64,000 nt of DNA from Prostheceraeus crozeri (lineage: Eukaryota; Platyhelminthes; Polycladida; Euryleptidae), in the NCBI GenBank assembly GCA_907163375.1, contig CAJQUW010008647.1, positions 1 to 64,000 of the forward strand, in the 5' to 3' direction. The notes beneath the pieces are model-generated. The model was not told the DNA's origin and ran no database searches. It saw only the letters and a program-made list of their open reading frames with translations. The translations under genes and the position numbers were made by a program. This document shows, piece by piece, positions 2,968 to 62,690 of this stretch; position 1 is the stretch's first letter; each line of letters starts with the position of its first letter.

Positions 2968-2968
2968 A

Positions 2969-6371: not shown

Positions 6372-7058
6372 TTATGTCGTCCACGTTGGGTGGTTTCGGA
6401 ATATATAGGATGGATTCCATATGCATGGAGAGAGAGGCTATTTTATTATCCTTGTGTCGACCATAATATAGCCCATTTACTTTGAAAAGGATATCCCAAG
6501 TACCTTCTCCGAGCTCATTACATCTGATGGGTATTGAATGATCTCCATCCTTCTTATAGTAAGTACACCAATGTGATACCGGTAGGCAAATGTGATTACC
6601 ATCCCAAATCTTTCTATAGGGAGTATCCTTGTCATCTCTCGCCTTCCACTCTTGAGCAAGAGGAGTAGGAATGTCCATATTTAATGTCACGTACTCCTCA
6701 ATAATATCAAGTTGGTGGCGAATGTACGGACTCACGGGGATCAGTATGTAGTCCCCATACTGATTGTGCATTATCTTGACATCCGTGGAAGGGAGCATTC
6801 CCGTTTGGAGTACTACGCTATGATCATCATAACGCAAGGTTTGTTTAAATTTACGCTGTAGCGGTGTAGGATTATGTACCTTGGTTGTTTCTTCCACTGG
6901 CCTCAGTTGTAGATGATCTGACCGTAGCGAACCTTGTAACGTTTGACCGCCATTTTGTCCTACTAGTGCAGCAGATGGAGTAGATGCCTGAAAATGAAAA
7001 AAGATTGTATTAAGTTTACGTTCATGGGAGGAGAGGGAGGGAAGTAGCGACTTACCAT
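6283..7058 (-). CDS. spliced early gene, conserved Polinton protein (ssDNA-binding-like?)
   Basis: Two exons are inferred. Exon 1 carries only the ATG (7058-7056), immediately followed by a GTAAGT donor. The intron is 6988-7055 (68 bp) and ends TTTTCAG. Exon 2 is open from 6987 to 6283 and begins with an ASTPSAAL-type peptide. The product of about 235 residues shares blocks with ORFs at 60106-60789 and 56298-56720: a RHQLDIIEEYV helix, then a Gly-x-Tyr/Trp beta segment followed by LYYGRHKDNKIASL. The strand-rich G-x-Y...YxGxH...SL pattern could be an OB-like fold binding single-stranded DNA, but that is speculative. The C-terminus is Lys-rich (KRKSEKNATSKRKSKK). TATA and CCAAT boxes lie upstream. 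Confidence 0.6.
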
Positions 7059-7157
7059 TTTAGTTGGATAATAGAACAGGGAACTAGGGAGAGAGAAAAT
7101 GTGCGTCCGTCACTCGTGTGATTCAACGATGGAATGATTCTCACTGTGGAAGGCTCG

Positions 7158-7206
7158 CTATTTATAAAGAAATGCTTGATTCTCATTGGATGATGATCCT
7201 CATTGG
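7158..7206 (-). promoter_or_regulatory. TATA box with two CCAAT boxes
   Basis: On the minus strand CTTTATAAATAG (7169-7158) lies about 100 bp upstream of the exon-1 ATG at 7058. It is preceded by CCAATGAG boxes at 7189-7185 and 7206-7202. Spacing and order (CCAAT, CCAAT, TATA, start) fit an RNA polymerase II core promoter for the early gene. Confidence 0.65.
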
Positions 7207-8034
7207 ACAATAACATCAAGCTGATTCCAAATCTGGCCTCCGTTTTCCAATCCGATGCTTCGTTTTGAAGCTACAGCCCAAAACGTCCCAAATTCTAACT
7301 CTGTCGTTTTTCGCCAATGTCCCAAAATCTTAAATGGCGTCTCACATCTAAACGAAGACAGATAGGAACAAGCCGATTCTTTCAGTGAATTTGTCTCACT
7401 CTTAGCTTTCAAACGAGCTATCGCACGACAAAATCCGTCCACTGGAAGCCAAAATCGAAGCAAGCTGTCCAGGGGGGGGGACGTCAGCCGAAAATTTTTA
7501 CTCTCCGATTGACTTGAAACTCACCCTACCGATGCAGAATTTCACGCTGAATCCGAATCTGACCTCCGTTTTCTCATCCGACCACTCCTTCCACTCGAAA
7601 CAACCCATTTTACAACCCAACATTCAGCAGATTGCACGAAAAACATCACACACTATAGCCTCAAGACTAATCCCGGCGGTCGCCCACGTCAACCAGGCGG
7701 TCGGACCAACTCACCCGAGTCTCACACTCTGTCGTTGCAGAGGGGGGGGGAGTCAGCGGACATGTTGTGAACGTGAACCCACCTGGCCGGCACACCACGA
7801 CAGACCACAACCTCTGTCGTTCCAGAGGGGGGGGGACGTCAGCGAACATGTTGTGAACGTGAACCCACCTGGCCGGCACACCACGACAGACCACAACCTC
7901 TGTCGTTCCAGAGGGGGGGGGACTCAGACCCGAAGCACCACGGCGGCCGACCACGACACTCTGCCGTGCCAGAGGGGGGGGGACTCAGCGACGGCGGCCA
8001 TCTTGCGCTATCCAGAAGTGGAGTTTTGCTTACT
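7200..8034. repeat. right terminal region of Polinton copy 1
   Basis: The stretch shares blocks with the terminal regions of copies 2 and 3, for example AAATTCTAACTCTGTCG, CACATCTAAACGAAG and CTCTTAGCTTTCAAACGAG, which recur near 62130-62260. It contains long G tracts followed by GACGTCAGC or GACTCAG (CRE/AP-1-like). No gene is evident; the 180-codon plus-strand ORF at 7514-8056 follows the tandem repeat and is not credible. The 6-bp target duplication cannot be checked because the left end is outside the window. Confidence 0.65.
7732..7990. repeat. about 85-bp minisatellite with long G tracts
   Basis: Two nearly identical units of about 85 bp (each GTCGTT[G/C]CAGAGGGGGGG, a GTCAGC box, CATGTTGTGAACGTGAACCC, CCTGGCCGGCACACC) are followed by two partial units that keep the CAG(G)n core. 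The repeat is much more GC-rich than its surroundings. A single related G tract occurs at 7472. The other copies have one or two C/G tracts at the matching place, so the array probably arose inside the terminal repeat of this copy. Confidence 0.8.
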
Positions 8035-46726: not shown

Positions 46727-46732
46727 GTTGTT
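46727..46732. repeat. 6-bp target site duplication (left)
   Basis: GTTGTT directly precedes the AGTAGTAAGCCC terminus. An identical GTTGTT follows the right terminus at 62685-62690. Six-bp duplications are characteristic of Polintons. Confidence 0.9.
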
Positions 46733-47125
46733 AGTAGTAAGCCCGTTCCCACGCGAAGGACAAATGTGCAGCGATGAGTCATCGCTGCTGAGTCATCATG
46801 CTGACTCAGCCCCCCTCCTGTCTGGAAGGTCTTCGCCAAGGATGTGATGGAAAAGATCGGACCGAGTGGAGGAAACTGCTCCCTCCCCCCCCTCCTCTGA
46901 GGTTGTGTGGTGTTGGTTGTTCACGTCTCCGGTGAGGAAAGGGCAGGTGTTGGATGTTTTGGGATAAGAAAGGCCCTGTTTCGGCATGAATAAGTGTCTG
47001 GATGGATAAACGGAGGGCAGATTCGGATTCTACGTGAAAGTTTGGGTTAGGAAGGTTGTTTCCAGCTCAATCGGAAGAAAAAGCGCTACCCCCCCCTCCT
47101 GACAGGCAAGCCAGCAGGCAGACTT
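46733..47125 (+). repeat. left terminal inverted repeat, copy 2
   Basis: About 390 bp matches the right end in inverse order (AGCCCCCC tract, CTTCGCCAAGGATGTGATGGAAAAGATCGG, GGGCAGATTCGGATTCTACGTG, CAGCTCAATCGGA and a second C tract). It contains three AP-1 sites: 46775-46781, 46789-46795 and 46802-46808. Homology ends after the second C tract, where the left copy appears to have lost sequence still present at the right end and in copy 3. Confidence 0.85.
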
Positions 47126-47214
47126 AGATGGAAGGTTTTGGGAAACAGGAGGAAAGTCGACTGCGAGGTAGGAGTGGAAAGACTTGTGACATTTCTCAAC
47201 CGACTTCTCTCGAC

Positions 47215-47222
47215 TATATAAG
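47215..47222 (+). promoter_or_regulatory. TATA box of the left-end gene, copy 2
   Basis: TATATAAG, 78 bp before the conserved ATG at 47293. Sequence and spacing match the copy-3 promoter at 39627. Confidence 0.75.
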
Positions 47223-47292
47223 TGGAGTCTCTACTTGTGGGAATCAGTTCAATCGCCAGTCGAGGTACGGGTAGGTGAACTCCGGAGCTCCG

Positions 47293-47761
47293 ATGATAGC
47301 ATTGGAAATCTCTAAGAACCTGGTTTCTGTAGGAAACCAAGGCAGATTTTTCGATTGCCGAATAAGTAAAAGTGAGAGCGGTTGAGGATACGAATAAAAG
47401 GTTATTAATGATGAATGAGCAGTTGAGGGTGAAGGTGGAAAGCCTTAAGGAGACGAGAGTGGAGTTGGAAAGGTTGAGACAGATGGAGAAAGAATGGATG
47501 GAGGAGGGAAGTGAGCTGTTGAAGAAGGCGATCAAGACTAGCAGTTTGGAGGCGAGCTTGTTGAGGAAGGATGGAGAGATTGAGGAGATGCGAAGTGTGG
47601 TGAAAGAGACAGAGGAGGTGAAAGGAATTAATAAGAGGTTGCTGTCGGAAGTTGATCGGTTGCATGAGCGTGAGAAGTGTCGAAAAAGGAGAGTATATGA
47701 GGCTCATCTTCCCCTCTTTGAAAATAACGTATGTGATGTCCCCACCATCTCCAGCGATTAG
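47293..47761 (+). CDS. left-end gene: MIALEIS exon plus coiled-coil segment
   Basis: A short frame from the ATG at 47293 (MIALEISKN) is followed by a 129-codon frame at 47372-47761. The latter is almost wholly heptad-patterned and charged (LRVKVESLKETRVELERLRQ; SEVDRLHEREK), so it encodes a coiled coil ending in a short non-helical tail. The two frames overlap and are probably joined by splicing, or a shift has occurred; the junction is not certain. The conserved promoter and first exon are shared with copy 3. Function unknown; a structural or regulatory dimer is possible. Confidence 0.5.
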
Positions 47762-48424
47762 AATGAAACACAATTGTGTTACGAGGGGGTTGGAGTTCGC
47801 TGCCTCCACATGACGATAAATATCAATCGAGAGCTTGATGACTTTGTCGTCAGAAAAGTTAGAAAGAAGGTTCCCAGTAAGTCTATTCAATACAATCATT
47901 TCTCCACCCCATCTCATCTCCTACTATTTTCGTTTGAGAGTGTTTGCAGTAGTAGTGTCGGTGGACGGAGAACGCCCCATGAGCCTTCTTAAGGGCTACC
48001 TTCTAATGCAGGTAAAGCGGTCCCAAGCCCGCCACATATCTTCGGATATGGAATGCAGAGGGGAAGAATAAATGATGAAATGGAATGAAATGGGAGGCCA
48101 CCCTTGCACCACATGCAACACTCTGAACGCATAAGTTACTTTACTGTATCGCAGTCGATTGCTGTACAAGTATTGAAGAAAACGTGAGTTAGTAAATCAG
48201 CAGAAAAAACATAGGAAGACATGTGAAGTTCCAAATATACTTACTTCGAAGATTGAACTCAACATGATAAACCATTGATGATTAATACTACCACGAAGTG
48301 CAACAAGTCTACCGTTTATAGAAAAAGAGTAGAGGCTATCAGGAGTTATCAGTAGAGGCTCGTTACCTCTAAAGTATAGTTAGTAAAAAATTGTCATGAA
48401 AAAATACTTTATTTGGTCTTTGAT
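47762..48424. other. no gene recognised
   Basis: Intergenic sequence with only short ORFs. A GGTAAAGCGGTCCCAAGCCCG stretch near 48012 looks like part of a retroelement tail, but nothing around it supports that. Confidence 0.4.
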
Positions 48425-48868
48425 TTATGGACAGCCATCATTGAAACCCGTTTCACTGATAGCAATGACAATATGGTTTATTTTATTCAGAAGCAAATGA
48501 TCGCCGTAACCATGAAAGTTGTCCATCCCAGAAATAATCTTCCGCAGATGTCGTGTATAAAACTCAGAAGCATCAGTAACATATTCTTGTCCATAGGAAC
48601 GAAATTGAAAGTCAACACTTTCCACTTCTTCACCTTCTGGAAAATGAGTGTAATTGACATGTGCAATTAAGTGGGCCTTGATGAGACTGTCTTTGAAATA
48701 AGATATCAACTCCGTAAATATTTCTCGTGTGTAGTCTAAACATGCTTTCAATTCTGTCTCCTCCCTTTGAAACTCAAGGATGTAATCTTGTATTAAACCT
48801 CCGAAGCTCTCTTGATGAAAACGAATCGTGCAATCATCATGTTTCAATGTAATGACTTCAGGTGGCAT
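48425..48868 (-). CDS. stand-alone homologue of PolB N-terminal domain (left copy)
   Basis: 147 residues, intact. Blocks: CTIRFHQESFGGLIQDYILEF (residues 13-33), a helical zone with FTELISYFKDSLIKAHLIA, a strand pair VNYTHFPEGEEVESVDFQF, then EFYTRHLRKIISGMDNF and a final LLLNKINHIVIAI strand. Paralogues with the same order are at 57354-57725, 61427-61825 and 5150-5455. It diverges from the polymerase promoter, about 140 bp away. Predicted to fold like the domain preceding the PolB exonuclease (inference); possible roles are polymerase accessory or DNA binding. Confidence 0.6.
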   Translation of the reverse strand: MPPEVITLKHDDCTIRFHQESFGGLIQDYILEFQREETELKACLDYTREIFTELISYFKDSLIKAHLIAHVNYTHFPEGEEVESVDFQFRSYGQEYVTDASEFYTRHLRKIISGMDNFHGYGDHLLLNKINHIVIAISETGFNDGCP

Positions 48869-49007
48869 GGCTGAGTCTATTGCTAAACATCATTTTTGCC
48901 TAAGACGATTTCAATAACGCGTTTCAAATGTGTGTGCGTGCATCGGGAACTCTAGCTCGTCTGTGATTAGACGAGAGGTCTCATCCATTCACCGCTTAGG
49001 AAAATCT

Positions 49008-49055
49008 TATAAAAGGCAGTGCACCAGTCTGCTCTTCACATTTATCTTTCACAAG
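49008..49055 (+). promoter_or_regulatory. polymerase promoter: TATA box and leader exon
   Basis: TATAAAAG at 49008-49015 is followed about 40 bp later by an AAG/GTGAGT splice donor (exon end 49055). The first coding exon begins after a TTTTCAG acceptor at 49469. The leader would be non-coding. Confidence 0.6.
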
Positions 49056-49089
49056 GTGAGTGTCGGTGAGCTCCTGCTATCAGGTTGTT

Positions 49090-49310
49090 TTGACTTGCTA
49101 TCAAGTTGAATAGTCTCTTGCTATCAAGAGATTCACTTCTGCTCATAAAACATATCATCGCTGTAATACCTCCTTTGCTCAAGCGTTCCTTCGGGAGGGC
49201 GGGTACTGCCGTAGAGGGATAGCGTTGCACGGGTTGTTCGTCGTTTGTTAGACCGAAACCTCTGAGCCGCTGCTCATGTTGGGCGTTCGACTTCATACTC
49301 AACATGACGC
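49090..49310. repeat. copy-2 version of the Polinton-associated repeat unit
   Basis: Lies in the inferred first intron of the polymerase gene. It shares TTGCTATCAAG, GTTCCTTCGGGAGGGCGGG, TTAGACCGAAACC and CTCATGTTGGGCGTTCGAC with 40590-40750. An 87-codon minus-strand ORF crosses it, but the frame is not conserved in copy 3. Confidence 0.5.
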
Positions 49311-49518
49311 TTTCTCTCGCCAGATCAGAGTACTTCAGCCATTCGACAAAGGTTAGTCTTTATGATATGGAGTAGAGTGAAATGTAATTCATTAGATGTA
49401 GCTTCAATTATTGTTCCCATGATAAACGTTGACTAGGCAAATGAAACGATTCTCATCTCTTCTTTTCAGTGATTGAAGTATATACCTACCATTGATCATC
49501 TGCAATCGACTGTCCGTC

Positions 49519-52500
49519 ATGGAATTCGCAAAAATTAAAAACTACCGCATATCTGCTGAGATGGAGATGGCCACCATCGAGCAATGTAAGCATTTGTATC
49601 AAGGATGAGGTTGACTCACTCTATACTAACATCATTAGGGTGGACATCCCATTTAAACGTAAATCAAGACCCGTCAACTCCCCTATTTCATTCATTTTTA
49701 AACCGAATCGAAAATTTCATTGTGGCACTCTGCTTATCTTTGCAGCCATTCTTTTTCAGTGCATGAATGTATTCGTAATGGAGAACCCGTCACCCAAGGA
49801 GAAATCGGGAAGCCTATGAGCGGCTTGGCAAGTGTAAGTATCTTTAACATCACATGTTTAGGCTGTTTCAGATCCTCTGTATCATCCTTGTCTCAATCTC
49901 TAATCACTCTTTCCTGTCTACAGATTTGGCCAAGATGAAGAAATGGGAAGAAGCCGCGAGGCGGAAGTACCGCGAGGAATTTCCGGCGCTACCTTCCCGT
50001 CCATCAACCTCCGCTCAAGGTCCAACTCCTTTCTCGAGCTCGGGCATCGTCATCGCCCAACCTCCACCGCCTGCTCCGCTCCATGTACTAGTCCCCGCTC
50101 CTCGCTGCCACGTCCCTCAAACACCGTAGCCAAGGATCCTACTACCCTCGGCTCGTGTCCCACTCCTACCTCCTCCTCGACCATCGGTGTTGCCGGAGAT
50201 CAATTCATTAGATGGTAAGTAACCGTGATTGGGAAATAGGGGGGATAAGACTCAACTAAAACTCATTTCAAACTTGAAATTATGGTCATGTTACTGATCT
50301 CTTTTTTCTTTTCTCAACAGATCTGGCGACGGTTCTCCTGGACGGCGACGTTCCCTCCCGCCCCATCATCATCCATGCATCGCCACCACCACCTGCAGCA
50401 GCGGCCGAACTCCCTCTCCTCTCCGTTCAGTTGGTGGAGAGATTGCTGGAGGAGCAGGAAATGGAGTTGGAGATAGTGGGAGAGTACAGGGAGATTGAAG
50501 AGGTAGACAAGAGAGAGGAGCTCCGATGGCAGGGACGTGACAAGATCTTCGCCTCAGCCTACAGTTTGAGACGTCACATCGCTGGCAACGCTTACACGGG
50601 AGGATCTCAGCCCCGACCTCAACGACCCAAGTGTGAAGGTTATGGACGCACGTTCAACAACAGCACCAACTTGCAACGTCACATCGAAGGCGGTTCCTGT
50701 GGCAGTGTGAGGCAACCAACGACAACAACAGGTAGTAGACATCCTTCGTCGCACGTCGGCTTTTCCTGTTCTTCGTGTCAGAAGACCTTTCCTACAGAGT
50801 TTGTTCTTTCTTCGCACACACTCTGTCACACAGATTCCACTGAGCTTTACACTGACAACAACGTCACTCTAAGGCTGATCAAGTTTTCCCTTGAGAGGCT
50901 CGTTCGCGACTATGAGTTAGAAAGCTCTGAAGCTGTACAAGATATTTTCCTTTCTTGATGAATAATATAGGCTTAATTCATCAAATGTTGACGAGCTTAG
51001 ATAGATTTTTAATCAAATGTATGTTCTATCTCACTGCTCGTTTCAATAAGGTAGACAGTAGCACGGTAGAAGTAGAGTCCACTGTGACCATTCGGATAGC
51101 CTCTTGTGCTGCTGATCTCATAGGTGATGTAAATGAGTGGATAGAGAGACATGCGACCTATCTCGTCAGCAACTTAAATAAATTTAATGATAGAGATAGG
51201 GGTTTGGTTTTTGATGGGATAGAGAAAGTAGACATTAAAATCAATCTTTTAGAAAATTTGCAAGGGAGCGGTTGTTTCACCCTACCAAAAGCACTGGTTA
51301 GCAAAAAGGATGTCATCAATGTAGATTGTCAGTCCCAGTGTTTCAAGTATGCCATCCTCTCCATTCTTCACTATGATGATATAAGTGTACATCGTGAACG
51401 AATCACTCACTATCGTGAATGGGAGGATGAACTTAAGTTTGACGGGTTAGATGTCAACACATCAGATTTTAGGGACATTATCCAATTTGAAAAATTGAAT
51501 AAAATTAAGATAGTTGTCCATCTCTGGGAAAAAGGTCTGAAGGGCGTTAGGTATAACAACCGCCAAAGTAACTTCGACCGGGTTGTCAATCTCCTCCTAG
51601 TGTATAGCGACAAACACACAGAATGGCATTATTGTGGCATTCCTAAAATTTCAAAGTTTATCGCCACCAAGAAACCTATAGGGATAATTTTTTATTACTA
51701 TGATCGCTGCATACGGCGTTTCACATCTAAACCATTTTTTAAACAGCATTAGGAATGGTGCTCTCGGGCTAAACTTCAAATTGAAGTCATGCCCAAAGAT
51801 AAATTTTATAGATATGAGGAAAACCGCAATGAGCTCAGTCCCATATGTACCATCTATGCGGACATTGAATGTTACATTGAACAAGAAGACTTAAATCATG
51901 AGCCAGCAGCCTGTTATGAAGTATGGCATCCATATTATAGGAATCAAAATAAAATGCATGTGTGGCAGGGCGAGGAGTGCGTTGAAAACTTCCTCAACTT
52001 TTTAGATAGGAAAGCCCGTTTTCATCAATGGTATGAAACGGAGCTGACTAGGAAACCCATGTGCTTCACAGAAGCCGATGAACTCAAATTTGATAGGACC
52101 ACGGAATGTCCCCGCTGCTGTTCATCCTTTGATGATCAGCAACATAAGAAAGTGTGGGACCATTGCAATCTCAGTGGTAAATTTAGGTCTGCCTTCTGCA
52201 GTAAATGTAATATGAAACTTAGGCTCAAAAGGCGAACGCTCCCCGTCATCTTCCACAACTTTAAATGTTATGATGCTTACATCATCATTTGCCATGGATT
52301 CGGTAAAATGAAATTCTGGTCATCCAAAGTGATTACACAAAGTAAGGAAAAATTTATGTACATCACTGCCAAAGTAAAAGTAGCTAAGACGAAGGAGGGG
52401 AAGCCTGTCTTCTATGACATAAAGTTTCTAGATAGCTTTCAATTTATGTCTTCTTCCTTAGCCGCGTTGGCTAATAAATTAGAAACACTTCCCCTCAGTC

Positions 52501-54354
52501 AACATTTAAAGAAAGACTATCCCAACATAAGCGAAAGTCTCATGCGACGGAAAGGGGTGTTTCCTTATGGTTATTTTAGTTCAATGGAGACATTGAAGGA
52601 GACATCCGTTCCGTCCATCGATAAATTTAAAAGTGATTTGACGGGTGAGGACTGTTCGCCGGATGATTATAGGGATGCAGAGCAAGCATGGTTAGAATTT
52701 AGGTGTCGCACTTTTGGTGACTACATGCTTGCCTACTTAAAATTAGACGTCTATCTGTTGGCTGACGTGTTTGAGACTTTTAGGAAAGTCACATTAGAAC
52801 AGGACGCCTTAGACCCCGTCCATTTTGTTAGTCTACGAGGTCTGTCCTATCAGTCAGACTTCAAGATGACAAAAGAGAGAATACATTTACTGCAAGATGC
52901 AGAAATGTACACGTTATTTGAACGTGGTATTAGGGGTGGCTCAACATTAGTTAACAAACTTGTTGTCAGCAGCACCCAAGACATAGGATCGACCACGCAT
53001 TTAATGTACACAGACCAAAATAATTGATATGGGAGTGCATTATCCAAACCTTTGCCACAGTCTGACTTAAAAAATGGGTAGAGCCCTATGACATTGAACA
53101 CATCTCCAATCCAGCACACATCATAGCACTGGGAGATGAGGCCGACATAGGTTATTTATTTGAAGTCGACCTCATCTATCCAGAATGTATTAAGAATAAG
53201 ACAGTTGATTTTCCTCTCGCACCTGAATCTGGCATAGTCAGTCCAGATATGTTCTCTCCCTTTATGGAAGAACACAATAAGCAATATGAGGCGGAAAATG
53301 ACTTAAAATATAAAGCCACTAGGAAGTTGTTGCTCACCCAATTGAACAAGCAGCATTATGCCGTGCACTGTTCCATCCTCAAATGCTATCCAGGTATGGG
53401 GAATCAACTTGACAAAGTCCATCGCGCTATCCAGTTTAGGCAGAAGCCCTTTCTAAATCCGTATATAGAATTCAATAGTAAGAAACGGGCTGAATCCAAG
53501 AATCCTTTCGAAAAGGACTTCTTTAAATTTAAGAATAATGCCCTCTTTGTTAAAACCATGGAGGATGTAAGAAAGCGCATGGACTATCGTATCGTGACTG
53601 ATCCGGAAACGAGTATCAAGTTATGCCGCTCACCGCTGTTTTGTCACCATGATGTCATTTCCGAAGACATCACTGTCACATGTTAAAATCAAAAGTAGAA
53701 CTTTGCAAGCCCATTTATGTAGGACAAGCTGTCTTGGATCACTCCAAGTTAGAAATGTACAAGTTGTTTTACTACAGCTTTAAGACTTGCCCACTGATCC
53801 AACATGTTGAATTTGTAGGAGGCGATACAGACAGCTTCTTCCTGGCTTTGACAACCACTAGCCAAGTCAAGCAGGAAGACATTTTAAGATGTTTAGCACC
53901 CAAGTTTGATAGTTCCAACTATCCTACTGACCATCCGCTTTACTCTACCACAAATAAAGCGAAGCTTGGCTGCTTCAAGGATGAGTGTGCCGGCAAACAG
54001 ATAGAGGAGATGATCTTGCTTCGTCCCAAGATGTAATCAATAAAACTAAATTCCTCAGAGCTTTCTATGAAACGGGCGAAAGGCATCTCGAAGTCAATCG
54101 TTAGGAATATGACACATAAGGACTATCGAGATGCCCTAGATTCACTTAAAATTAAAAAAGTAGAAATAACCATTTTAAAATCACAGTGGCATCAAGTCAG
54201 AACAACGACGTTTAGGAAACGAGGTCTCTCAGCTTGGTGAGACAAGCGACGCTGGATGAGTCCTAACCACTCATTACCGTACGGTCATCCAGACACTCAT
54301 CTACCTCCACCCAAGAGACAGAAACTTTCTCCTCCTCCGTCCGGCGATGTATGA
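49519..54354 (+). pseudogene. protein-primed family B DNA polymerase (Polinton PolB), multi-exon, decayed
   Basis: Coding exons are inferred at 49519-49585, about 49760-49833, 49924-50214 and 50321 onward, with GTAAG donors and CAG acceptors. Domains in order: Pro-rich and acidic N-terminus; C2H2-like fingers (50570-50860); the PolB N-terminal domain; GSGCFTLPKAL and QCFKYAILSILH; exonuclease motifs TIYADIECY (51860), HNFKCYDAY (52256) and LKLDVYLLADVF (52740); IRGGS; palm segments; the YVGQAVLD block and the catalytic GGDTDSFF (53825); a GH-type C-terminus. Lesions: in-frame stops at 50127, 51750, 53025, 54034 and 54237, and frameshifts near 50950, 53070 and 53680. It cannot yield a full-length enzyme as it stands. 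Confidence 0.9.
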
Positions 54355-55025
54355 TGATGTATGCTTCCTCTCTGTTGTGGTTGATGTTTTGCTTTTTCAC
54401 TCCATGGCGTATTCTATGGGGTGTTGTGAGTGAGTGCCTTGTAGCATGCGTCCATATCCTTATCACAACATATCATGACTTGCATATCAACTGTTTTCCT
54501 GACTTTGTTTTGTCCCTGTACAGGTTCTTTCAATGACTTTGTCTTCTCCGGTGATGTGTGCCATAAAAACTTTGTTTTCTACTACCAACAGTATTACCTA
54601 TGTGCGGTGCTATGAAAATCGGCTGTGATGATGAATAACATATCATGTACATACTGTGTCGTTTTCCTTTCACATAAAGTTGGGTTTCAAATAGGTGGGA
54701 CTGACTTGGTAATAATGTCATAAGCATGTCACTGTTTGTAAGATAGGTAAAGTATAAAATATGTTTAGAATCATTTCACTTTTTGTAAAGTTAGAAATAA
54801 AATTGACGTTTGTAAAGTTAGAAATAAAGTTGACGTTTGTAAAGTTTGTACGATAGGTGAAGTATAAAATAAAGTTGGAATCATTTTAGTGTTTGTAAAG
54901 TTGGAGATAAATTTGTTGTTTGTAAAGTTAGAAAGAAAGTTGACATCCTCAAATTTCTAACAAAGTTTCCAACGAATGTAGCATCATGAAAACTTCTTCG
55001 GCTTAGGAAACATCATACTTTTTGC
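54355..55025. repeat. polymerase 3' flank with TTTGTAAAGTTAGAAATAAA tandem repeats
   Basis: At about 54775-54960 a unit of roughly 30-35 bp (GTTTGTAAAGTTAGAAATAA, then GTTGAC) is repeated about five times with variation. It includes AATAAA signals that could serve the converging polymerase and TBP-like transcripts. No gene is found in 54355-55025. Confidence 0.6.
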
Positions 55026-55300
55026 TGACTCATGTCTATAAATAGCTCTGACTCATGAAGTAGTAAAGTGCCATTCAGCTAGATAAGAATCTAATCAGTC
55101 TTGTTCAACTTTTTCACCGACAACTGTGTGGACGTGTCATTCAACATCGATGGCGCCTCGCGTCAGACAGCATGACCTTTTCACCGACAAGTGCATGGGC
55201 ATTATTTCATGTCTATAAATAGCGCTGACTCATCATAAAGCGATAAACCTTGCTGATGACCTTTTCACCGACAAGTGTGTGTGGGTGATAGTTCATTGCG
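55026..55300 (+). promoter_or_regulatory. duplicated TATA/AP-1 modules
   Basis: GTCTATAAATAGCKCTGACTCAT occurs at 55035-55056 and 55212-55233; TATAAATA is followed 5 bp later by the AP-1 site TGACTCA. An additional AP-1 site is at 55026-55032. CCTTTTCACCGACAA recurs at least three times between the modules. No plus-strand ORF follows, so the modules might drive non-coding RNA or act as enhancers. Confidence 0.5.
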
Positions 55301-55327
55301 CTGACTCCTTCAAAACACATCATGTGA

Positions 55328-55866
55328 TTAACACGATTCTATTAACTGTGCCTCATACAGATAACGCATTAAAGATTTAACAATGTCAGCTACTTTACTG
55401 ATATCACGTAAACCAGTCATGATACAATGTCCGGTGAGAAACACTGCAATATTTACAGGATGCCACTTCCGAATCAGAGCAGCAGTAAATAGTTCAGTTT
55501 CATAAAATATACAATGATTGCTGGTTTCAATGTTGGCTACATTCAATAACATCTTCAATTGAACAGACACTACTATATTCTTCAATGTCAGGGGACTGAG
55601 ACGTAGATGAGGCATGAGTGTTCGCATTTTCTTGACGACTTCGTAGCACATGGACTGCATCACGAAATGAGAAAGGTTTTCTAGGACTTGGATTTTGCCG
55701 CAGCGAAAGATTTGAAGAGTTCGAACGTTGCTCATGCGAATGACCAACATTGTGGACGACCGCGATGATACACTGAATCGGGAAGATGGGTATGCAACTG
55801 TTCTAAATCGATGTCTCTTCTGAGATTCATTTCACGCATGGCGTTGATGATGCGGATGGAGAGCAT
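55328..55866 (-). pseudogene. TATA-binding protein (TBP) homologue, one frameshift
   Basis: A start at 55866 opens a frame that shifts near 55745-55750 into the ORF running to 55328, about 180 codons in all, the length of the TBP saddle core. Two repeats are visible. Repeat 1 has VIRMSNVRTLQIFRCGKI, matching the RIREPRTTALIF...GK region. Repeat 2 has KNIVVSVQL, YETELFTAALI and IAVFLTGHCIMTG, matching NMVGS, YEPELFPGLI and LLIFVSGKVVLTG. Three of the four DNA-intercalating Phe positions of TBP are Phe here. It overlaps the upstream ORF by 35 nt. TBP-like genes are known in some large DNA viruses; I know of none described in Polintons. Confidence 0.75.
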
Positions 55867-56161
55867 GATTCACAAATGACATGAGGGTTGAGTGAACTTC
55901 CCTTGTATACTTTTCCCATGAGGGTTTTGGAATCACGATGTAGCAGTGATCATTATGTAGAATCATCTCTTGAATGCGAATAAGTACAATGCCGTCTCCT
56001 GCGTTAATGACACGGCCAGAGTTGGATAGGATAGCGCGATGCAACCTTCGTAGTTGAAAGCGTTCTACAGTTATCTGAAGTTGACGTTTCATATCATGAA
56101 ATGTAACACACTGACTTTTCCATGATACAGAGAGGCATGCTGATAATTTCCACATGATCAT
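55832..56161 (-). CDS. uncharacterised protein upstream of the TBP homologue
   Basis: 109 residues, beta-rich in appearance (GRVINAGDGIVLIRIQEMIL, then HCYIVIPKPSWEKYTREVH). A splice acceptor (CAATCAG) precedes the start. It overlaps the TBP-like start by 35 nt, so the two are probably expressed together. I recognise no family and saw no counterpart in copy 1. Confidence 0.45.
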   Translation of the reverse strand: MIMWKLSACLSVSWKSQCVTFHDMKRQLQITVERFQLRRLHRAILSNSGRVINAGDGIVLIRIQEMILHNDHCYIVIPKPSWEKYTREVHSTLMSFVNHALHPHHQRHA

Positions 56162-56297
56162 TATTCAAACCTGATTGAAGAGTGTAATGCCTAAGAAAGA
56201 AGGAGAGAGTCATGTTCATGTGTGGCATGGTGAGTGTACATTTTCAAGGCCGTGGTCTCATTAAGACCGATGGTGCGTTCTCAGTGTGTGGAGAGTG

Positions 56298-56720
56298 TTA
56301 CTGTAGTTGATCATCATCAACATGGACATCATTCTTAAAGGTTATGGAGACAATATTGGGGTCCAACGTAAAGAACCTTCCGTCCATGCGCGGAACCATG
56401 TAGATGGTTTGAATTTTAATTTCGAGGGAGTAGAATCCTTTTCCCAAAATGGGGAGAGGTTTGCAATTGAGCAAGTCGAATTCGCTGCCCTCCTTTTCAT
56501 GGATGATGAGACAGTGTCTATCCATATGAACATAGATGTATCTTCTTTCCATGATGGGAACTTGTGGTCGCTTCCCATTGTGTCGAACAATTTCTTTGGG
56601 AATCGTGAGATTTTCTTTCAGGAATGTTTCAAGAGTATTGAATTGTAACCGTGTCCAATAGTCTAACGGCACACATACTGCGAGTCCATACTGTGTTGAG
56701 ATAACCTTTAGATAATCCAT
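56298..56720 (-). CDS. paralogue of the conserved early Polinton protein
   Basis: 140 residues. Shares with the genes at 60106 and 6283 an N-terminal VPLDYWTRLQFNTLETFL helix, a KRRYIYVHMD-like central strand and GKGFYSLEIKIQTIYMVPR followed by a DGRFFTLDPNIVSI segment (compare GAGFYSFHIEVPAAYVGP). It lacks the basic C-terminal tail of the others and ends in an acidic DVHVDDDQLQ. A TATA box on the same strand is at about 57030. It may be a diverged duplicate; function unknown. Confidence 0.55.
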   Translation of the reverse strand: MDYLKVISTQYGLAVCVPLDYWTRLQFNTLETFLKENLTIPKEIVRHNGKRPQVPIMERRYIYVHMDRHCLIIHEKEGSEFDLLNCKPLPILGKGFYSLEIKIQTIYMVPRMDGRFFTLDPNIVSITFKNDVHVDDDQLQ

Positions 56721-57027
56721 CCGATGACTTTGGTGATTTTATGGTAACGACTTATCCGTAATGAGTTATCTTTTGATTGAAAGCATTTTACCCGATGCTA
56801 AAGTAAGGGAGTTCAATGTACCCAGTGCGAGAGCAGAGGAGTTGATGGCTTCGAGCAACTGCATGGTTAGCGCAAGGACGGAAATGCTTGCCATGAGCTC
56901 AGTCGTTCGTTTTATAACCAGACCTAGCTCCAATCACATGCGTTTCCCTTTTCATGTTTTCCCTGTCTTTGTTACGTGACAAAGAGTTATCACACGTGAA
57001 CTTTTCACCGCGTGGGTAGAAACCTTC

Positions 57028-57040
57028 CCTATTTATATAC
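57028..57040 (-). promoter_or_regulatory. TATA box for the minus-strand gene cluster
   Basis: TATATAAATAG on the minus strand, about 310 bp upstream of the 56720 start. A short first exon may lie between. The AP-1 tandem repeats at 57066-57304 are directly upstream. Confidence 0.55.
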
Positions 57041-57065
57041 GAAGACCTCACAAAGACTTTAGTGA

Positions 57066-57304
57066 CACACCCCTTCTAGCGAACAAAGACGCATTCATTT
57101 ATTTAACAAAGAGCCTGATAGTAATGCACAAAGCGCAATGACTCATGTTGTGTCACACCCCTTCTAGCGAACAAAGACGCATTCATTTATCTAACAAAGA
57201 GCCTGATAGAAATGCACAAAGCGGAATGACTCATGTTGTGACACGCCCCTTTTCTCGAACAAAGACGCATTCATTTATCGAACAAAGCGCAATGACTCAT
57301 GTTG
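57066..57304. repeat. three tandem repeats, each with an AP-1 site
   Basis: Units of about 70-98 bp share ACACSCCTT, GAACAAAGACGCATTCATTTAT and CAAAGCGSAATGACTCATGTTG. The AP-1 sites are at 57139-57145, 57227-57233 and 57293-57299. The third unit lacks the middle GAGCCTGATAG portion. The position upstream of a minus-strand TATA box suggests an enhancer. Confidence 0.75.
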
Positions 57305-57353
57305 CTCTATACACCATTGCAAAATACTCAGTGAAAAGAAATCTTTATTGCAT

Positions 57354-57725
57354 CTACACAACATGACGACCCTCAAACAAAGTCGTGGATGTAAACACAC
57401 TCAGTTGAATCATGATATGTTTAACAACGTATGCATTTCCTTCCATCGTCTCTTCCATCTTCTCCATAATTGTCTCCATATGTCGTGCATAAAATTGATC
57501 ACTAAGAGTAATCCATTCTGTGCAATAGGATCCAAAACGAAGTGGTTTTTGCAAATAATTCAACTCTATATAAGCAACGAGTCTACCCTTCACATCTTGA
57601 CGTTGTAAACTCTCTATCAGTCTTTTGAAGTGAGGAAGGCTTTCAGTTAGCACTACTTTCATATCATTCACCTTTACTTTAAATGTAAGTTTCCAGTCTT
57701 GTAAAATCGAATCCTTGTTGATCAA
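57354..57725 (-). CDS. stand-alone homologue of PolB N-terminal domain (middle copy)
   Basis: 123 residues. The first block is diverged (DWKLTFKVKVNDMKVVL). Then follow HFKRLIESLQRQDVKGRLVA and a strand, RFGSYCTEWITLSDQFYARHMETI and a terminal IMIQLSVFTS strand, which align with the 61427-61825 protein (DSLMNKDVKGRLVAEIEF; FYQRHMAKI). The most diverged of the three copies in this element. Located between the DnaQ-like gene and the AP-1 repeats, matching the position of 5150-5455 in copy 1. Confidence 0.5.
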   Translation of the reverse strand: MINKDSILQDWKLTFKVKVNDMKVVLTESLPHFKRLIESLQRQDVKGRLVAYIELNYLQKPLRFGSYCTEWITLSDQFYARHMETIMEKMEETMEGNAYVVKHIMIQLSVFTSTTLFEGRHVV

Positions 57726-57953
57726 GTGTCAAATGACACATGTGGTTACTTAATGTACGATGTGCCATCATAAACGTTGTGACTATAGATTTCACATTGC
57801 TTTAATGTCTTCCACTATGAATAAAACAAAAATAACAATCATGTTCCACTGTAACTTTATTCAACATCAATCAAAATTCGCAAAGCAATCAGAGAGTAGT
57901 GAATACAATTCATGAAAAGATAATCACTCATTCACAGAGAGTAAATGTATGTT

Positions 57954-58530
57954 CTAGTTACACCCATGCTGTTGACAATAATATAGATGCAGTTCATGAA
58001 CATCATAGAGACTACAATGCCAGCGTGAAGAGAGTTTTGCAATGTAGGTGGCTTTATTTCTAGTATTACAATGGGATGGTGGTCTGTAAGGGTGATGTCT
58101 ATCACCGAAACATACAGCCATATCAAAAATCATTTCATCTGTTAACTTCTTTTGATCACAATGCATATCATAGTCTTGACTTACACGATCTACCCAACAT
58201 GGAAAATATAAATTATCAATGTGCAATTAAAGTGTTGCTGCTTTTTTTTCAGAATCATTTCCTAATATTTCAACAATATGAAAACCTGACAGTTGATATG
58301 AAAATTGAAATCACTTATCAAATACGTTTCATTCACAGATCCAATATGAATCAAAATAGAAGGATCAAGTCCATGCACATGACGTCGTGACCATTCGTCT
58401 TTGTGTGGAGGACAGTAGGCAAATCTATGATATACGCTCGTACACTAGCAACAGTTTGATCGCTTTCCCTCATTGCAATAGCACTCAACTCCTGCATTGG
58501 TGTCCCCTCACTGTCTATGACGATGACAAC
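57954..58530 (-). pseudogene. DnaQ-like exonuclease candidate, copy 2, broken
   Basis: After a TTGTAG acceptor at 58531 the frame reads VVIVIDSEGTPMQELSAIAM (motif I, D-x-E). A different frame then gives RRHVHGLDPSIL, and the last 90 codons (58226-57954) end in WHCSLYDVHELHLYY (motif III, H-x4-D). It is the counterpart of 5540-6088 in copy 1. At least two frameshifts separate these parts. Motifs I and III agree between copies. Confidence 0.5.
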
Positions 58531-58702
58531 CTACAATATCAAAAAGACTTAGTTACAAGATAATATACTCACTGACATAGATAATGAAACCAAATATCAA
58601 TGACTTGAATGGAAGTTTGTCTCATTTTTTTCTATGGTTTGAGATGATATCTCGCTTTCTATGTATCACCATTGAACTCCATATGATAAGGGAAATGATA
58701 TA

Positions 58703-59854
58703 GGACCATCAAATTTCAAAATTTGATATTGATCACAGTAACAGCTAGAAGTTGAACAGAATCACCACCTACTGCTGACCAGATTTGACTTATGAAATGG
58801 CGCACGATAACTTTACCAGAGAAATGGCAATTGGGATGATGCGTTGTGGGCAAAGTTCTACAACTGTCTCGAGATAATTGAAAATTTCAAGGGTCGTTGT
58901 ATGGAGGTGGTGGTGTCGTTGGAAAGCAGAAGGAAATATGGAAAAGAAGAACGGATCAGGAAGACCAAGGGTATCATCCAAGCGGACAGATGCACGCTTA
59001 ATTTTAGCTGCTAAAAGAAACAGATTTGTGTCCGTCCCGAAGCTAATTGTGTACTGGAAGGTTGCTGGGAACGTTGCCTGTAGCGTTCGAACTGCATATC
59101 GAAGATTGCGAGAAGCTCGTATATAGTCTCGACGACCCGCTGTGAGAATTTCGCTGAGCCTGGAACATCGAAGGAGACGAGTGACGTGGTGTCAAGGTCA
59201 TCAGTCGTGGAGTAACAGTCAGTGGGAACGTGTGCTCTGGACTGATGAATCAAGGTTTACTCTCGATTTCAACGATGGTCGGATCCGTGTTCATCGCTTG
59301 CCAAGTGAACGATTTGCTCCATGTTGCGTCAAAGAACACGACCGGTACGGCGGCGGTAGTTTCATGGTTTGGGCCGGTATCTGGCACAATGGGAAAACAC
59401 CAGCAATCGTAGTGAAAGGAACATTGACAGGACAGCGATATGCCGACGAGATCGTGACACCGGTCGTGGTTCCAGCAGTAACATCGAATCAATTGATTTT
59501 TCAGGATGACAACGCAAGGCCCCATCGCGCTGCAGTGCTCTCTAACAGGATAGCAAGCAGTGGAATCCCAACCTTCGAATGGCCCTCACGTTCTCCCGAC
59601 CTCTCCCCCATCGAGCACTGCTGGGATGAACTTGGTCGCAGAGTGAGGGAGAGGTACAACCACCCACCAGTGTCTTTCAAGATGTTGGCCGACAGACTGA
59701 TCGAGCAGTAAAACCTCTTAGACCTGGCATTCATCCAGCGACTGTGCTCATCCATGCCCTCACGCATCGATGTCTGTTTGGATGCTCGCGGTGGTCACAC
59801 CCGTTTCTAACTTAAGTTGATAAAATCATGAGTATCAAATTAAATGTTTTTGAG
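58703..59854 (+). mobile_element. Tc1-like transposon inside the Polinton
   Basis: Degenerate inverted termini (ATCAAATTTCAAAATTTGATA on the left, TATCAAATTAAATG on the right) are flanked by TA at 58701-58702 and 59855-59856. They enclose a plus-strand Tc1 transposase. Boundaries are approximate because the termini have diverged. The insertion lies between the DnaQ-like gene and the 3' end of the RING-like gene. Confidence 0.65.
58878..59711 (+). pseudogene. Tc1 transposase, frameshifted
   Basis: 58878-59126 encodes paired-like HTH domains (VVVWRWWCRWKAEG; KNGSGRPRVSSKRTD; RTAYRRLREA). 59142-59711 encodes the DDE core with VLWTDESRFTLDF, IFQDDNARPHRAAV and WPSRSPDLSPIEHCWDELGR. The two are separated by a stop near 59126 with no methionine spacing expected, so one lesion splits the gene. 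GC content is higher than the surrounding Polinton genes. Confidence 0.88.
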
Positions 59855-60224
59855 TAAAGCATTCGAGTTCTCCTTCTACAAACAACAAACAAACGTACAG
59901 TACAACCAAGTTTAAGTCATAAGTATTCATATCAGGACTTGTTTCATTCTTTTTGTCACTGAGTATACATTGAGCAGGAACTTTACAAGGATGTCTGTCC
60001 TTTACATAACAAAAGATACATACAACATGATTACAATGTTTTAATTGAATATAACGCACAAGACCGCGTTTTCCACATTCACTACATACTAACTGATTAC
60101 AATACTCAAGATTTCTCTTTGATGGTAACACCATCTGTCTTTGATGCACGACGACGTTTAGGTTTGGTGACAGGTTCTTGACACTCTTTGACATAAGAAT
60201 CAATGACTTTCTCAATGTGATCAA
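59835..60224 (-). CDS. RING-like zinc protein, copy 2
   Basis: 129 codons. The zinc pattern is CSECGKRGLVRYI, then CNHVVCIFC and further Cys, as in 6123-6371. The last residues read into the terminal sequence of the Tc1-like insertion, so the original C-terminus was probably displaced. The first 40 residues overlap the upstream early gene in another frame, and a TAATCAG splice acceptor just before the CSEC region hints that the zinc part is a downstream exon. Confidence 0.5.
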   Translation of the reverse strand: MITLRKSLILMSKSVKNLSPNLNVVVHQRQMVLPSKRNLEYCNQLVCSECGKRGLVRYIQLKHCNHVVCIFCYVKDRHPCKVPAQCILSDKKNETSPDMNTYDLNLVVLYVCLLFVEGELECFTQKHLI

Positions 60225-60789
60225 GACCTGTTAACTCAGGTTGATGATGAATTTGAGCAACACTCAAATTGAGAGAAATCAAATTACCGTCAGATTGATG
60301 AGGTCCCACGTAAGCAGCAGGCACCTCAATATGAAAGGAGTAAAAGCCTGCACCTAGTGTTGACAATTCTGTTTCAACTGAATGTTCAACTGTCACTCCT
60401 GAAGTGACTTTACAATAATTGCTTTGTAAAATATAGCAGCGAGTGCCGCGATACAAAGGTTTATAATAAGAAGTTTTCTTTTCTGGCCACAACTGCAATA
60501 GTTCAGTGGGAATAAGAGCCTTTTGCCTCACAACGTCTTCTAAAATGTCAAGCTGCTGACGCAACCAATTATCAATAGGAATACTCAGGTTTTGACCGCA
60601 ACGATTTACTTGCGTATCCACTTTTGGTAAGTATGCCGCCGGCGTTTGAAGATAGAGTCGAACACCGTTGTAGCGCACTTGTTGTTTGTAGGTAGAATAT
60701 CCTTGAATTACCTTTTCAATTTTCGGATTCCACAGCTCGAGATGATGAGGATTGAGTGATGCAGCAGTAGGAGTAGGATTCATGGCCAT
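60106..60789 (-). CDS. conserved early Polinton protein (ssDNA-binding-like?), copy 2
   Basis: The start is placed at 60789 (AMNPTPTAASL), just after a TTACAG acceptor, parallel to the spliced start in copy 1 (ASTPSAAL). About 227 residues: WLRQQLDILEDVV helix, YKPLYRGTRCYIL strand, GAGFYSFHIEVPAAYVGPHQ, then a SDGNLISLNLSVAQIHH strand and a basic tail (KPKRRRASK). Alignable with 6283-7058 and 56298-56720. A role in binding single-stranded DNA during protein-primed replication is speculative. Confidence 0.6.
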   Translation of the reverse strand: MAMNPTPTAASLNPHHLELWNPKIEKVIQGYSTYKQQVRYNGVRLYLQTPAAYLPKVDTQVNRCGQNLSIPIDNWLRQQLDILEDVVRQKALIPTELLQLWPEKKTSYYKPLYRGTRCYILQSNYCKVTSGVTVEHSVETELSTLGAGFYSFHIEVPAAYVGPHQSDGNLISLNLSVAQIHHQPELTGLDHIEKVIDSYVKECQEPVTKPKRRRASKTDGVTIKEKS

Positions 60790-60909
60790 GGCAGTCTGTA
60801 ACGAAAGAATACCACTAAGTACATTCATGATCATCAGAGAAAAGAAAATTGTTGGCCTAGCAGTGACATATGAGGTGGCCCTTAGGAGGACCTTTTGCTG
60901 CGTTCACAT

Positions 60910-61143
60910 GATTTAAAGCTCATCACCAAAGTCTAAACCTTCGTCATCGTCCAGTAAATTAAATGTCTTGGGCTTAGGACACGAATTAGGTTTCAATTCC
61001 TTCAAGGTCTTGAAGGTAAAGCGTCTAGGTGGTGGAGGCGGTGGTGGTGGTGGCGATGGTTCAACAAAATAGGCTTGTACAATCATCGGCCACACACTCT
61101 CCTGCGTCTCTCTTCTAAAATGTTGGTAAGGTTTAGGCCACAC
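60910..61143 (-). CDS. small polyproline protein
   Basis: 76 residues with nine consecutive prolines near residue 34, flanked by RRETQESVWPMI and RRFTFKTLKELK, and an acidic end (DDDEGLDFGDEL). A GTGAGT donor just upstream (about 61160) suggests splicing may change the N-terminus. A TATA box lies about 140 bp upstream. The acidic tail recalls transcription-activation or partner-binding tails. Family not recognised. Confidence 0.4.
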
Positions 61144-61280
61144 AGTCAGTCATGACACTCACTTGTAAATTTGGAAACAGGATTGAATCAAACAAAATTG
61201 AGACGAAGAATGGTTTGAGCAAGTCACACATGCTATTCAAGTCAAGAGAATGAAATGAAGAGAAAATGGGGAGATGACTG

Positions 61281-61290
61281 CTTTTATAGG
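61281..61290 (-). promoter_or_regulatory. TATA box upstream of the polyproline gene
   Basis: CCTATAAAAG on the minus strand. An inverted CCAAT (ATTGG on the minus strand) lies about 40 bp further upstream near 61323. Confidence 0.5.
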
Positions 61291-61426
61291 CTCCTGCGAA
61301 TCCACACTTGACACTATGAGAGCCAATCAGAGACCTCCGTTTCTCCCCTGACTTCGTTGCGGCTGGGAAAAGGAGGAAAGCGGACGACTGACTCATGATT
61401 GCTTTTCCCAAATCTTGTAGTCAAAT

Positions 61427-61825
61427 CTAGTTTAGCACATTGAGGTGAATATGAATGCATTTTATGCGACATAAGAGCAAGTTGGATCCATGCTCTTGAA
61501 ATGAATCTAGTCGAGAAGCAATTTTCGCCATGTGTCGCTGATAGAAATCTTTTGGATCATGTATCGTCTCTGCAGAATAGGATGCAAAATGAAGCACTAC
61601 ACGTTCGCCCGCATGTTCATCAGTCACTTTCTCAAATTCAATCTCTGCAACTAATCGTCCTTTCACATCTTTATTCATCAAACTGTCCATGAGATGTTGG
61701 AAAACGAAGTAACCTTCAGCGATAGCAAATTCTAAGTCTGCCTTTTCATGATGAAATGAGATGATGTAGTCCCTAATCACACCTCGAAGACTTTGTCGAT
61801 GAAAACGCAGTGAACACAAATTCAT
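61427..61825 (-). CDS. stand-alone homologue of PolB N-terminal domain (right copy)
   Basis: 132 residues, intact: LCSLRFHRQSLRGVIRDYIIS, then EFAIAEGYFVFQHLMDSLMNK, KGRLVAEIEFEKV, VVLHFASYSAETI, FYQRHMAKIASRLDSFQ and a final LLLCRIKCIHIHLNV. Closest in order and length to 48425-48868. Its N-terminal block is nearly identical to that of 5150-5455 in copy 1. It lies near the right end, so members of this family sit at both ends of the element. Confidence 0.6.
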   Translation of the reverse strand: MNLCSLRFHRQSLRGVIRDYIISFHHEKADLEFAIAEGYFVFQHLMDSLMNKDVKGRLVAEIEFEKVTDEHAGERVVLHFASYSAETIHDPKDFYQRHMAKIASRLDSFQEHGSNLLLCRIKCIHIHLNVLN

Positions 61826-62289
61826 TCGTAAACTCTACTGCATCTGTCATCTTTCTTCCTATCACATCTGAGGCATAGCATGAATGGCATAGTTCTAACA
61901 AGATTTTGCAGTCGTTTAGAATGAAACACTGTCTAATGTTGAACGTTTGTCTCGTATTTTCATGAGAAGAGATTGTTTGCTATCGAAGATGTATATGTTT
62001 GCGTATTTATGTCACTCCCACGACCCTCAAAACCCATCTATACAGGTGTAAAATGTCACGCTGATTCCAGATCCTGTCTCAGTTTTTTCATACGATGCTG
62101 CGTTCAAAAGTTAGAGACATTTTCATAAAATTCTAACTCTGTCGTTTTTTCGCGATTTTCTAAAAATCAACATTTCGATCTCACACCTAAACGAAGGAAG
62201 ACTTACACAAATGATGCTTTCCACTGCATTTGGCTCACTCTTAGCTTTCAAACGAGGTATGGCACGACTCTCTACGATCACTCACCCAA
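61826..62289. repeat. right subterminal region, copy 2
   Basis: No gene. From about 62050 it shares AATTCTAACTCTGTCG, CACACCTAAACGAAGG and CTCTTAGCTTTCAAACGAGG with copy 1 (7290-7430) and, inverted, with copy 3 (38900-39080). Confidence 0.6.
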
Positions 62290-62684
62290 GTTGGAAGTTC
62301 GACAGGAGGGAGGGGGGGGGCAGCACTCTTTCTTCCGATTGAGCTGGAAATTACCTTAACGATGTAAAATTGCACGTAGAATCCGAATCTGCCCTCCGTT
62401 TATCCATCCGAACTCTTCTTCATGCCGAAATATGGTCTTTCTCATCCCAAAACGTCCAAAACTTGCACTTTTCAAGATACTTTCACACCTAAACCAACCA
62501 ACACTTGGACATACTTTCCACTCCATCATGGGAGGAACAGTTTCCTCCACTCGTTCCGATCTTTTCCATCACATCCTTGGTGAAGACCTTCCAGACAGGA
62601 AGGGGGGCTGAGTCAGCATGATGACTCAGCAGCGATGACTCATTGCTGCACATTTGTCCTTCGCGTGGGAACGGGCTTACTACT
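62290..62684 (-). repeat. right terminal inverted repeat, copy 2
   Basis: Reverse complement of the left terminus with scattered differences. AP-1 sites are at 62609-62615, 62622-62628 and 62636-62642, mirrored from the left. Ends TTACTACT. Confidence 0.88.
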
Positions 62685-62690
62685 GTTGTT
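62685..62690. repeat. 6-bp target site duplication (right)
   Basis: GTTGTT, identical to 46727-46732. Confidence 0.9.

Follow-up and report, generated by a model that had tools for sequence, protein, structure and literature searches.

The window analysed here, a stretch of 64,000 nucleotides from the flatworm Prostheceraeus crozeri (contig CAJQUW010008647.1), contains a mobile element of 15,952 bp (46733-62684) with inverted termini and a 6-bp target-site duplication, and on the minus strand of this element lies a gene for a homologue of the TATA-binding protein (TBP). The gene begins with an ATG at 55866-55864 and the TBP frame ends with a stop codon at 55330-55328. The frame of the ATG yields 39 TBP-like residues (ending in SVYHRGRPQ), after which the TBP sequence resumes in another frame and runs to the stop; the length of 539 nt is one off a multiple of three, corresponding to a net change of one nucleotide in the first TBP repeat. 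The 167-aa translation of 55328-55831 matched the Pfam TBP family (PF00352) in two stretches with an E-value of 8.4e-12 and 45.2 bits, well above the curated cut-off of 22.9 bits, and found 35 PDB sequences at E ≤ 1, 34 of which are named as TBP, TFIID or fusions and one of which carries a locus name. A preliminary description of this DNA had proposed a two-repeat TBP homologue on the basis of the motifs LQIFRCGKI, YETELFTAALI and VFLTGHCIMTG. All three motifs are present in the window sequence and the profile match bears the proposal out, so that the window gene is almost certainly an element-encoded TBP homologue. Besides the profile search, that description had suggested a search of other elements of the genome, structure prediction and phylogeny against host and viral TBPs as checks, and the results of each, given below, agree with the proposal.

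A PF00352 profile search of the 2.05-Gb genome (14,165 contigs), in which the best 150 of 10,984 first-look candidates were scored and all counts are therefore lower bounds, revealed at least 146 TBP matches outside two host genes, the other four lying in those genes; the window copy itself is absent from the 150. One host gene, TBP, is on contig 9306 (L001/L003), and the other, on contig 3829 (L002), is TBPL1-like by our own reading. This TBPL1-like gene and a COX1 that can be translated throughout with genetic code 5 indicate an invertebrate host. The copy number is far beyond chance, and one stop codon was found inside the match in 8 of the 146. DNA was fetched for 44 of the 146 matches (L004-L048, with two places fetched twice and two copies in L028), and all 44 copies proved to be of the same kind, BLASTN assigning them and the window to three element families: A (3 copies), B (25 and the window) and C (16). 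Among the copies in L004-L028 and the window, the whole TBP core is open in 17 of 25 (A 3/3, B 8/15, C 6/7). The single frameshift noted in the preliminary description therefore exists as one net single-nucleotide change, but it is damage to the window copy and not a trait of the gene. Alignment to the family reference is free of gaps in 33 of 46 loci rows, which include the references, the window and the two twice-fetched places. The open copies measured encode 173-188 residues from the ATG, which is the TBP core only, and one open copy per family matched PF00352 with 82.6, 81.1 and 75.9 bits, in two stretches each. L028 holds two TBP genes in opposite orientation (2756-3286 and 6762-7292), about 3.5 kb apart and with identical translations, and further opposite-orientation pairs occur on contigs 2494 and 1944; such pairs are either inverted dimers or assembly effects.

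The AF2 model of a family A protein displayed the TBP saddle, and the 44 Foldseek matches below 0.001 and the top 38 VIA rows were all TBP. Key residues were surveyed in 124 sequences, using yeast numbering and the position names that we take to apply to the intercalating, TFIIB-contact and helix residues. The minor-groove Asn pair is kept (Asn69 in 102 of 103 letters, Asn159 in 124 of 124), and three of the four intercalating Phe residues, as counted in the preliminary description, are a property of the whole family: Phe116, Phe190 and Phe207 occur in 124, 123 and 124 of the 124 sequences, whereas Phe99 is Pro in 117 of 120 letters. Thr124 is lost in all (Leu, Met or Phe), Thr215 is kept in all, and the TFIIB contacts are Glu186 in 119 sequences with Asp in the remaining 5, Glu188 in 124 and Leu189 in 110. 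Lys138 of the basic helix is replaced by an acidic residue in 118 of 124, and G192A, like F99P, is common to the element TBPs. The C-terminal half of TBP binds the upstream part of the TATA box and TFIIB, and the basic helix is a contact surface for host partners. The pattern of conservation over the 124 sequences indicates that in the element TBPs the C-terminal half is whole and that the N-terminal half and the basic helix are altered. The host TBPL1-like gene also deviates at 116, 190 and 207, so the missing Phe limits the claim of TATA binding and not membership of the TBP family; in that host gene Trp, His and Tyr stand at three intercalating positions.

The single comparison possible for selection was a C-type pair, L015/L039 (85% identical), for which simple Nei-Gojobori counts, treating both frames without an overlap-aware model, gave a nonsynonymous rate (dN) of 0.113, a synonymous rate (dS) of 0.415 and a ratio of 0.27, which was also 0.27 outside the overlap described below. 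The ratio was 0.65 in the overlapping frame and 1.29, with many stops, in the third. These values indicate purifying selection on the element TBP in this pair. Within families, pN/pS came to 0.56 for six copies of B and 0.38 for five of C, a less clear signal than that of the C-type comparison (C-C2); copies decay after insertion.

Query A1, run against 5.8 billion proteins, returned 151 matches at E ≤ 0.001, at least 120 of them with PF00352 (120 of the 120 listed), and these 120 are 35-61% identical to the first query sequence. Database protein P0001 differs from family B copy L017 at 3 of 179 residues, and the longest contig of several database relatives is 15-17 kb, about the size of such elements. 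In IMG/VR, no relatives of the element TBP were returned for A1, A3 or host TBP as query, and a scan with cellular TBPs (A6) returned three other TBPs, all outside the element clade. A tree of 52 sequences, comprising 39 of the 120 listed relatives chosen for spread, four sequences of this genome and nine others, placed 43 element-type rows on one side of a branch with support of 100/99 and families A, B and C at separate places among them. This tree gave warning of long branches meeting (virus_L051 with the element rows); a second tree, from which three long rows (L051, TBPL1 and P0114) were omitted, kept all its 42 element rows together with support of 100/100. The element clade is separate from host, archaeal and giant-virus TBPs, and a long branch to other TBPs makes its origin unsure. 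That host TBP or TBPL1 was recently captured, or left a processed pseudogene as the preliminary description had allowed for, might be considered because the host possesses both genes. However, a long branch separates the clade from host TBP in both trees and from TBPL1 in the 52-sequence tree, F99P and G192A are shared, and such a capture, already contradicted by the tree as reconstructed, has a negligible probability. The best explanation of the sequence comparisons is that the element TBP belongs to an old lineage of its own, which is found in Polintons and in a relative of theirs in which no capsid genes were detected.

The first half of the TBP gene overlaps, in another frame, a sequence for a protein of predicted Pur-alpha fold, and this second frame is open in families A, B and C. 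The frame beside that of the window TBP belongs to this second gene, which corrects the preliminary description. The idea that the TBP reading is real and the second frame only a by-product of codon use draws on its detection in sequence and model, on the lack of a Pfam match over the cut-off for its product and on synonymous conservation, which in comparisons between families did not differ clearly within the overlap and beyond it and neither supports nor excludes extra constraint. Against this, in open copies of the three families the frame runs for 101, 112 and 108 codons compared with null means of 7-13, lengths that 1, 1 and 0 out of 5000 synonymous shuffles attained (p at most 0.0002 each). 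Resemblance to the product was seen in 11 distinct database proteins, 7 of them with the C-terminal motif, and its predicted fold includes a confident Pur-alpha-like domain. A mere by-product is accordingly very improbable. The second-frame product had no Foldseek match below 0.001 among PDB chains or viral models. A PC4-like partner had been the first guess from the sequence; no Pfam match over the cut-off was obtained and fold comparison favours Pur-alpha/Whirly/MRP, with PC4 still a candidate, and no literature joining Polinton and PC4 was found. In family C, L012 has another Pur-like domain just upstream (4224-4571), a second copy that is shorter and lacks the tail, and P0130-P0132 are alike.

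The TBP gene has a TATA box and an initiator of its own, which lie inside the Pur-like frame in all three families. The box reads TATAAAAGG in most copies scanned and, in decayed form, TATACAAGG in the window; TATAAAAGG precedes the TBP ATG by 43-44 nt in B and C and by 46 nt in A, and it is followed by an initiator-like TCATT whose A lies 32 nt from the box's first T. A TATAWAW box at -60 to -25 was present in 37 of 47 rows, two twice-fetched places included (A 5/5, C 16/16, B 16/26). A scan of eight stretches, either strand, for the pair of TATA box and initiator showed that the TBP pair is the sole one in L010, L011, L012 and L015 and that L009 has one more, and in A and C the other element genes are mostly without such a pair. 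In the B stretches L017, L020 and L025 pairs also stand near o212 and some 0.4 kb upstream of o265; L017 has another two. At the protein level, the trace of the promoter (Tyr followed by Lys or Ile and, ten codons on, Ser followed by Phe or Leu) was seen by eye in all 10 aligned rows that have the tail; it is a weak trace, since two of the five rows without the tail (P0129 and P0131) also fit and three do not. That TBP repeat 1 shares its DNA with a second conserved frame, and that this DNA also holds a promoter, is a new finding and represents unusually dense coding.

The window element is bounded by its own termini and a target duplication, as the preliminary description had it, with repeats that reach 46733 and 62684 and GTTGTT on both sides (Table 1). 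In family B the polymerase stands tail to tail with the TBP gene, which is followed by five genes of no assigned function. The window polymerase is spread over several frames, whereas copy L025 has a single frame of 1241 aa, and a Tc1/mariner-type transposase (DDE_3, 6.3e-12) is inserted at 59127-59711, so the window element is a decayed copy. A pair of related o174-family genes (48428-48889 and 61430-61834) sits near its two ends, and CTATAAATAG occurs twice (55036-55045 and 55213-55222) in a repeat-rich stretch between the polymerase and the TBP gene.

Table 1. Features of the family B element and its TBP locus (window positions)
Feature	Position	Strand	Basis or remark
Target-site duplication GTTGTT, left	46727..46732		flank of repeat
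Left terminal inverted repeat, starts AGTAGTAAGC	46733..47096	+	terminal-repeat pairing
DNA polymerase B, broken pieces, tail to tail with TBP gene	50931..54240	+	DNA_pol_B_2 1.3e-8 (51753-53027); phmmer pieces 53066-54237
TBP-like gene, decayed copy (family B)	55328..55866	-	Pfam TBP match; frames; 95.5% nucleotide identity to open copy L017
Second overlapping frame (Pur-alpha fold and C-terminal tail), broken	55530..56164 (55835-56164 and 55530-55802)	-	phmmer to L017 open copy
Initiator-like TCATT	55875..55879	-	its A 32 nt from first T of TATA box
Decayed TATA box of TBP gene	55901..55909	-	TATACAAGG in window; TATAAAAGG in most copies scanned
o212, no assigned function	56301..56933	-	phmmer; TATA and initiator pair near start in L017, L020, L025
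o150, no assigned function	57357..57801	-	phmmer
o187, no assigned function	57957..58530	-	phmmer
o265, no assigned function	60109..60903	-	phmmer
o174, no assigned function	61430..61979	-	phmmer; relative at 48428-48889
Right terminal inverted repeat	62313..62684	-	terminal-repeat pairing
Target-site duplication GTTGTT, right	62685..62690		flank of repeat

Families A and C, each known from stretches of about 10 kb, have the polymerase on one side and then, in order, a PX/PY pair (large, no assigned function), the TBP gene, a Ulp1-like protease, presumed capsid genes, an integrase with a chromodomain and a presumed ATPase, the capsid and ATPase genes being presumptively named from their position and from general knowledge. 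Pfam matched the integrases to rve (1.5e-13 in A, 2.2e-12 in C) and to Chromo, and the protease to Peptidase_C48 with 22.9 bits in A (cut-off 20.7) and, slightly below the cut-off, 19.3 bits in C. Neither A MCP, A ATPase nor C MCP was matched by Pfam, and the PDB yielded nothing convincing for the two A proteins. The A and C polymerases, presumably of the protein-primed type like the element polymerase B as a whole, are related by phmmer to the window polymerase pieces, one of which matches DNA_pol_B_2, although neither the A and C pieces nor the 1241-aa B frame of L025 matched DNA_pol_B_2 in Pfam at 0.1. Judged by these predicted integrase, protease and polymerase genes, families A and C are Polintons. 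In the window element and 13 other B stretches (10 or 3 kb), by contrast, the integrase, protease, capsid and ATPase of A and C had no phmmer match at E ≤ 1e-5, and Pfam revealed no rve domain among 19 distinct open reading frames of the window, where a strongly diverged gene could escape. The name Polinton, which the preliminary description gave to the window element, therefore suits A and C better. Family B, having no detected integrase of its own, may depend for its movement on integrase from elements of family A or C.

Starting from features established by computation (homology to TBP, the saddle fold, purifying selection in the single pair compared, the overlap with the Pur-alpha-fold frame, and, in all three families, the TATA box and initiator), we infer that the element TBP redirects host RNA polymerase II to element genes; the same proposal in the preliminary description is kept as the best reading, with the standing of an inference. 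Host TBP would switch the element TBP gene on early from the promoter, a TATA box with initiator, that lies within the overlapping gene. The TBP so made would then bind element promoters through its intact C-terminal half and recruit TFIIB and host RNA polymerase II, while the altered N-terminal half and the acidic helix would alter which site is recognised and relax the control that host TBP partners exert. The targets would be the element genes that have no TATA and initiator pair (presumed capsid, protease and integrase). On balance, this full sequence of events is slightly more likely than not. Its extension for Polintons is tentative and somewhat doubtful: an early-to-late switch in which host TBP starts the element TBP, after which TBP and the Pur-alpha-fold product would jointly give host polymerase II access to the capsid, protease and integrase genes, which have no promoter of this kind.

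Several points weigh against this reading. The mechanism is read from sequence and models, the AF2 model was built on a thin alignment of 12 rows from three families and has low confidence at residues 111-124, and the loss of one intercalating Phe (F99P) could weaken DNA bending. The database relatives are known as proteins alone, their genomic neighbours not being visible. As to the promoter, the TATA box and initiator sit within coding sequence, the pair arises by chance in 2.3, 4.1 and 4.1% of synonymous shuffles of the second frame and the families are related, and the box is not in place in 10 of the 26 B rows, although two of these do have it and were displaced when the stretch was clipped. 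Family B shows no early/late split, because of the additional pairs near o212, upstream of o265 and in L017, and TATA-like strings without an initiator precede family A PRO and mCP. The other element genes showed no shared upstream motif: the commonest 6-mer occurred in 6 of 13 stretches (13 of the 15 listed genes, the start motif not being found in two), and 29 of 300 random sets were as good or better.

Two other roles for the protein were weighed. It might be a competitor or decoy that dampens host transcription by tying up TATA boxes or TFIIB, as the kept DNA-facing and TFIIB-facing residues combined with an acidic helix would allow; viruses are known in general to shut off host transcription. 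A genome-resident element, however, gains little by host shutdown, the protein is the core only with no extra inhibitory part, and family B, where no capsid genes were detected, retains the gene, which makes this role unlikely. The TBP might instead serve DNA replication or integration by bending DNA at the terminal repeats or at the polymerase start site. Family B, in which TBP is kept where virion genes are not seen, retains TBP, polymerase and terminal repeats, and the frame overlapping the TBP gene encodes a protein whose fold is of a single-strand-binding type; yet the TFIIB-contact residues are nearly invariant and replication would not need them, so that this role appears slightly less likely still. 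Recruitment of host polymerase II to element genes remains the reading that we prefer.

To our knowledge, how integrated Polintons control their own expression is largely obscure, and a TBP of their own, if the reading is true, would give them a testable expression switch. A general transcription factor would then be carried by element families at more than 100 places in one genome, its altered form suggesting that elements steer the host gene-reading machinery toward their own genes, and DNA viruses would have one more way of acquiring TBP, in addition to those seen in mirusviruses and herpesviruses.

In the part of the Polinton, Maverick and adintovirus literature covered, with subscription papers and most preprints outside its scope, no report of a Polinton TBP was found; three adintovirus or Maverick texts had no mention of TATA on a term search, nor the two searched for TBP any mention of it. 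Families A and C resemble Polintons/Mavericks and adintoviruses in carrying a polymerase, an integrase with rve and chromodomain and a Ulp1-like protease, whereas family B differs in having no detected integrase and capsid genes. TBP is described in mirusviruses, of whose genomes 59% carry it (PMC10132985), and in an alga, on elements putatively derived from mirusviruses (PMC10675990). Mirusvirus TBP is likewise encoded in a group of eukaryotic DNA viruses, but a different one from Polintons. The three TBPs on IMG/VR contigs, whose virus group is not assigned, fall outside the element clade. The vTBP of beta- and gammaherpesviruses (UL87 of human cytomegalovirus, HCMV) binds TATT of late promoters together with five other viral factors (PMC7162547). 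As a viral TBP-like factor that brings host polymerase II to late promoters, it is the nearest working parallel to the proposed role of the element TBP, by analogy, and it differs in its five partners and its use of TATT. The partner protein resembles the Pur-alpha/Whirly/MRP single-strand-binding fold by fold comparison and differs in its tail after residue ~100, which overlaps the TBP gene. With cellular TBP (PF00352), the element TBP shares the two repeats, the saddle, the minor-groove Asn pair, three Phe residues and the TFIIB-contact stirrup. It differs from cellular TBP in showing only 15-26% identity in structure alignments, in Pro at F99, Leu, Met or Phe at T124 and an acidic helix in place of the basic one, and in having no N-terminal domain, lying on mobile elements and being overlapped by another frame.
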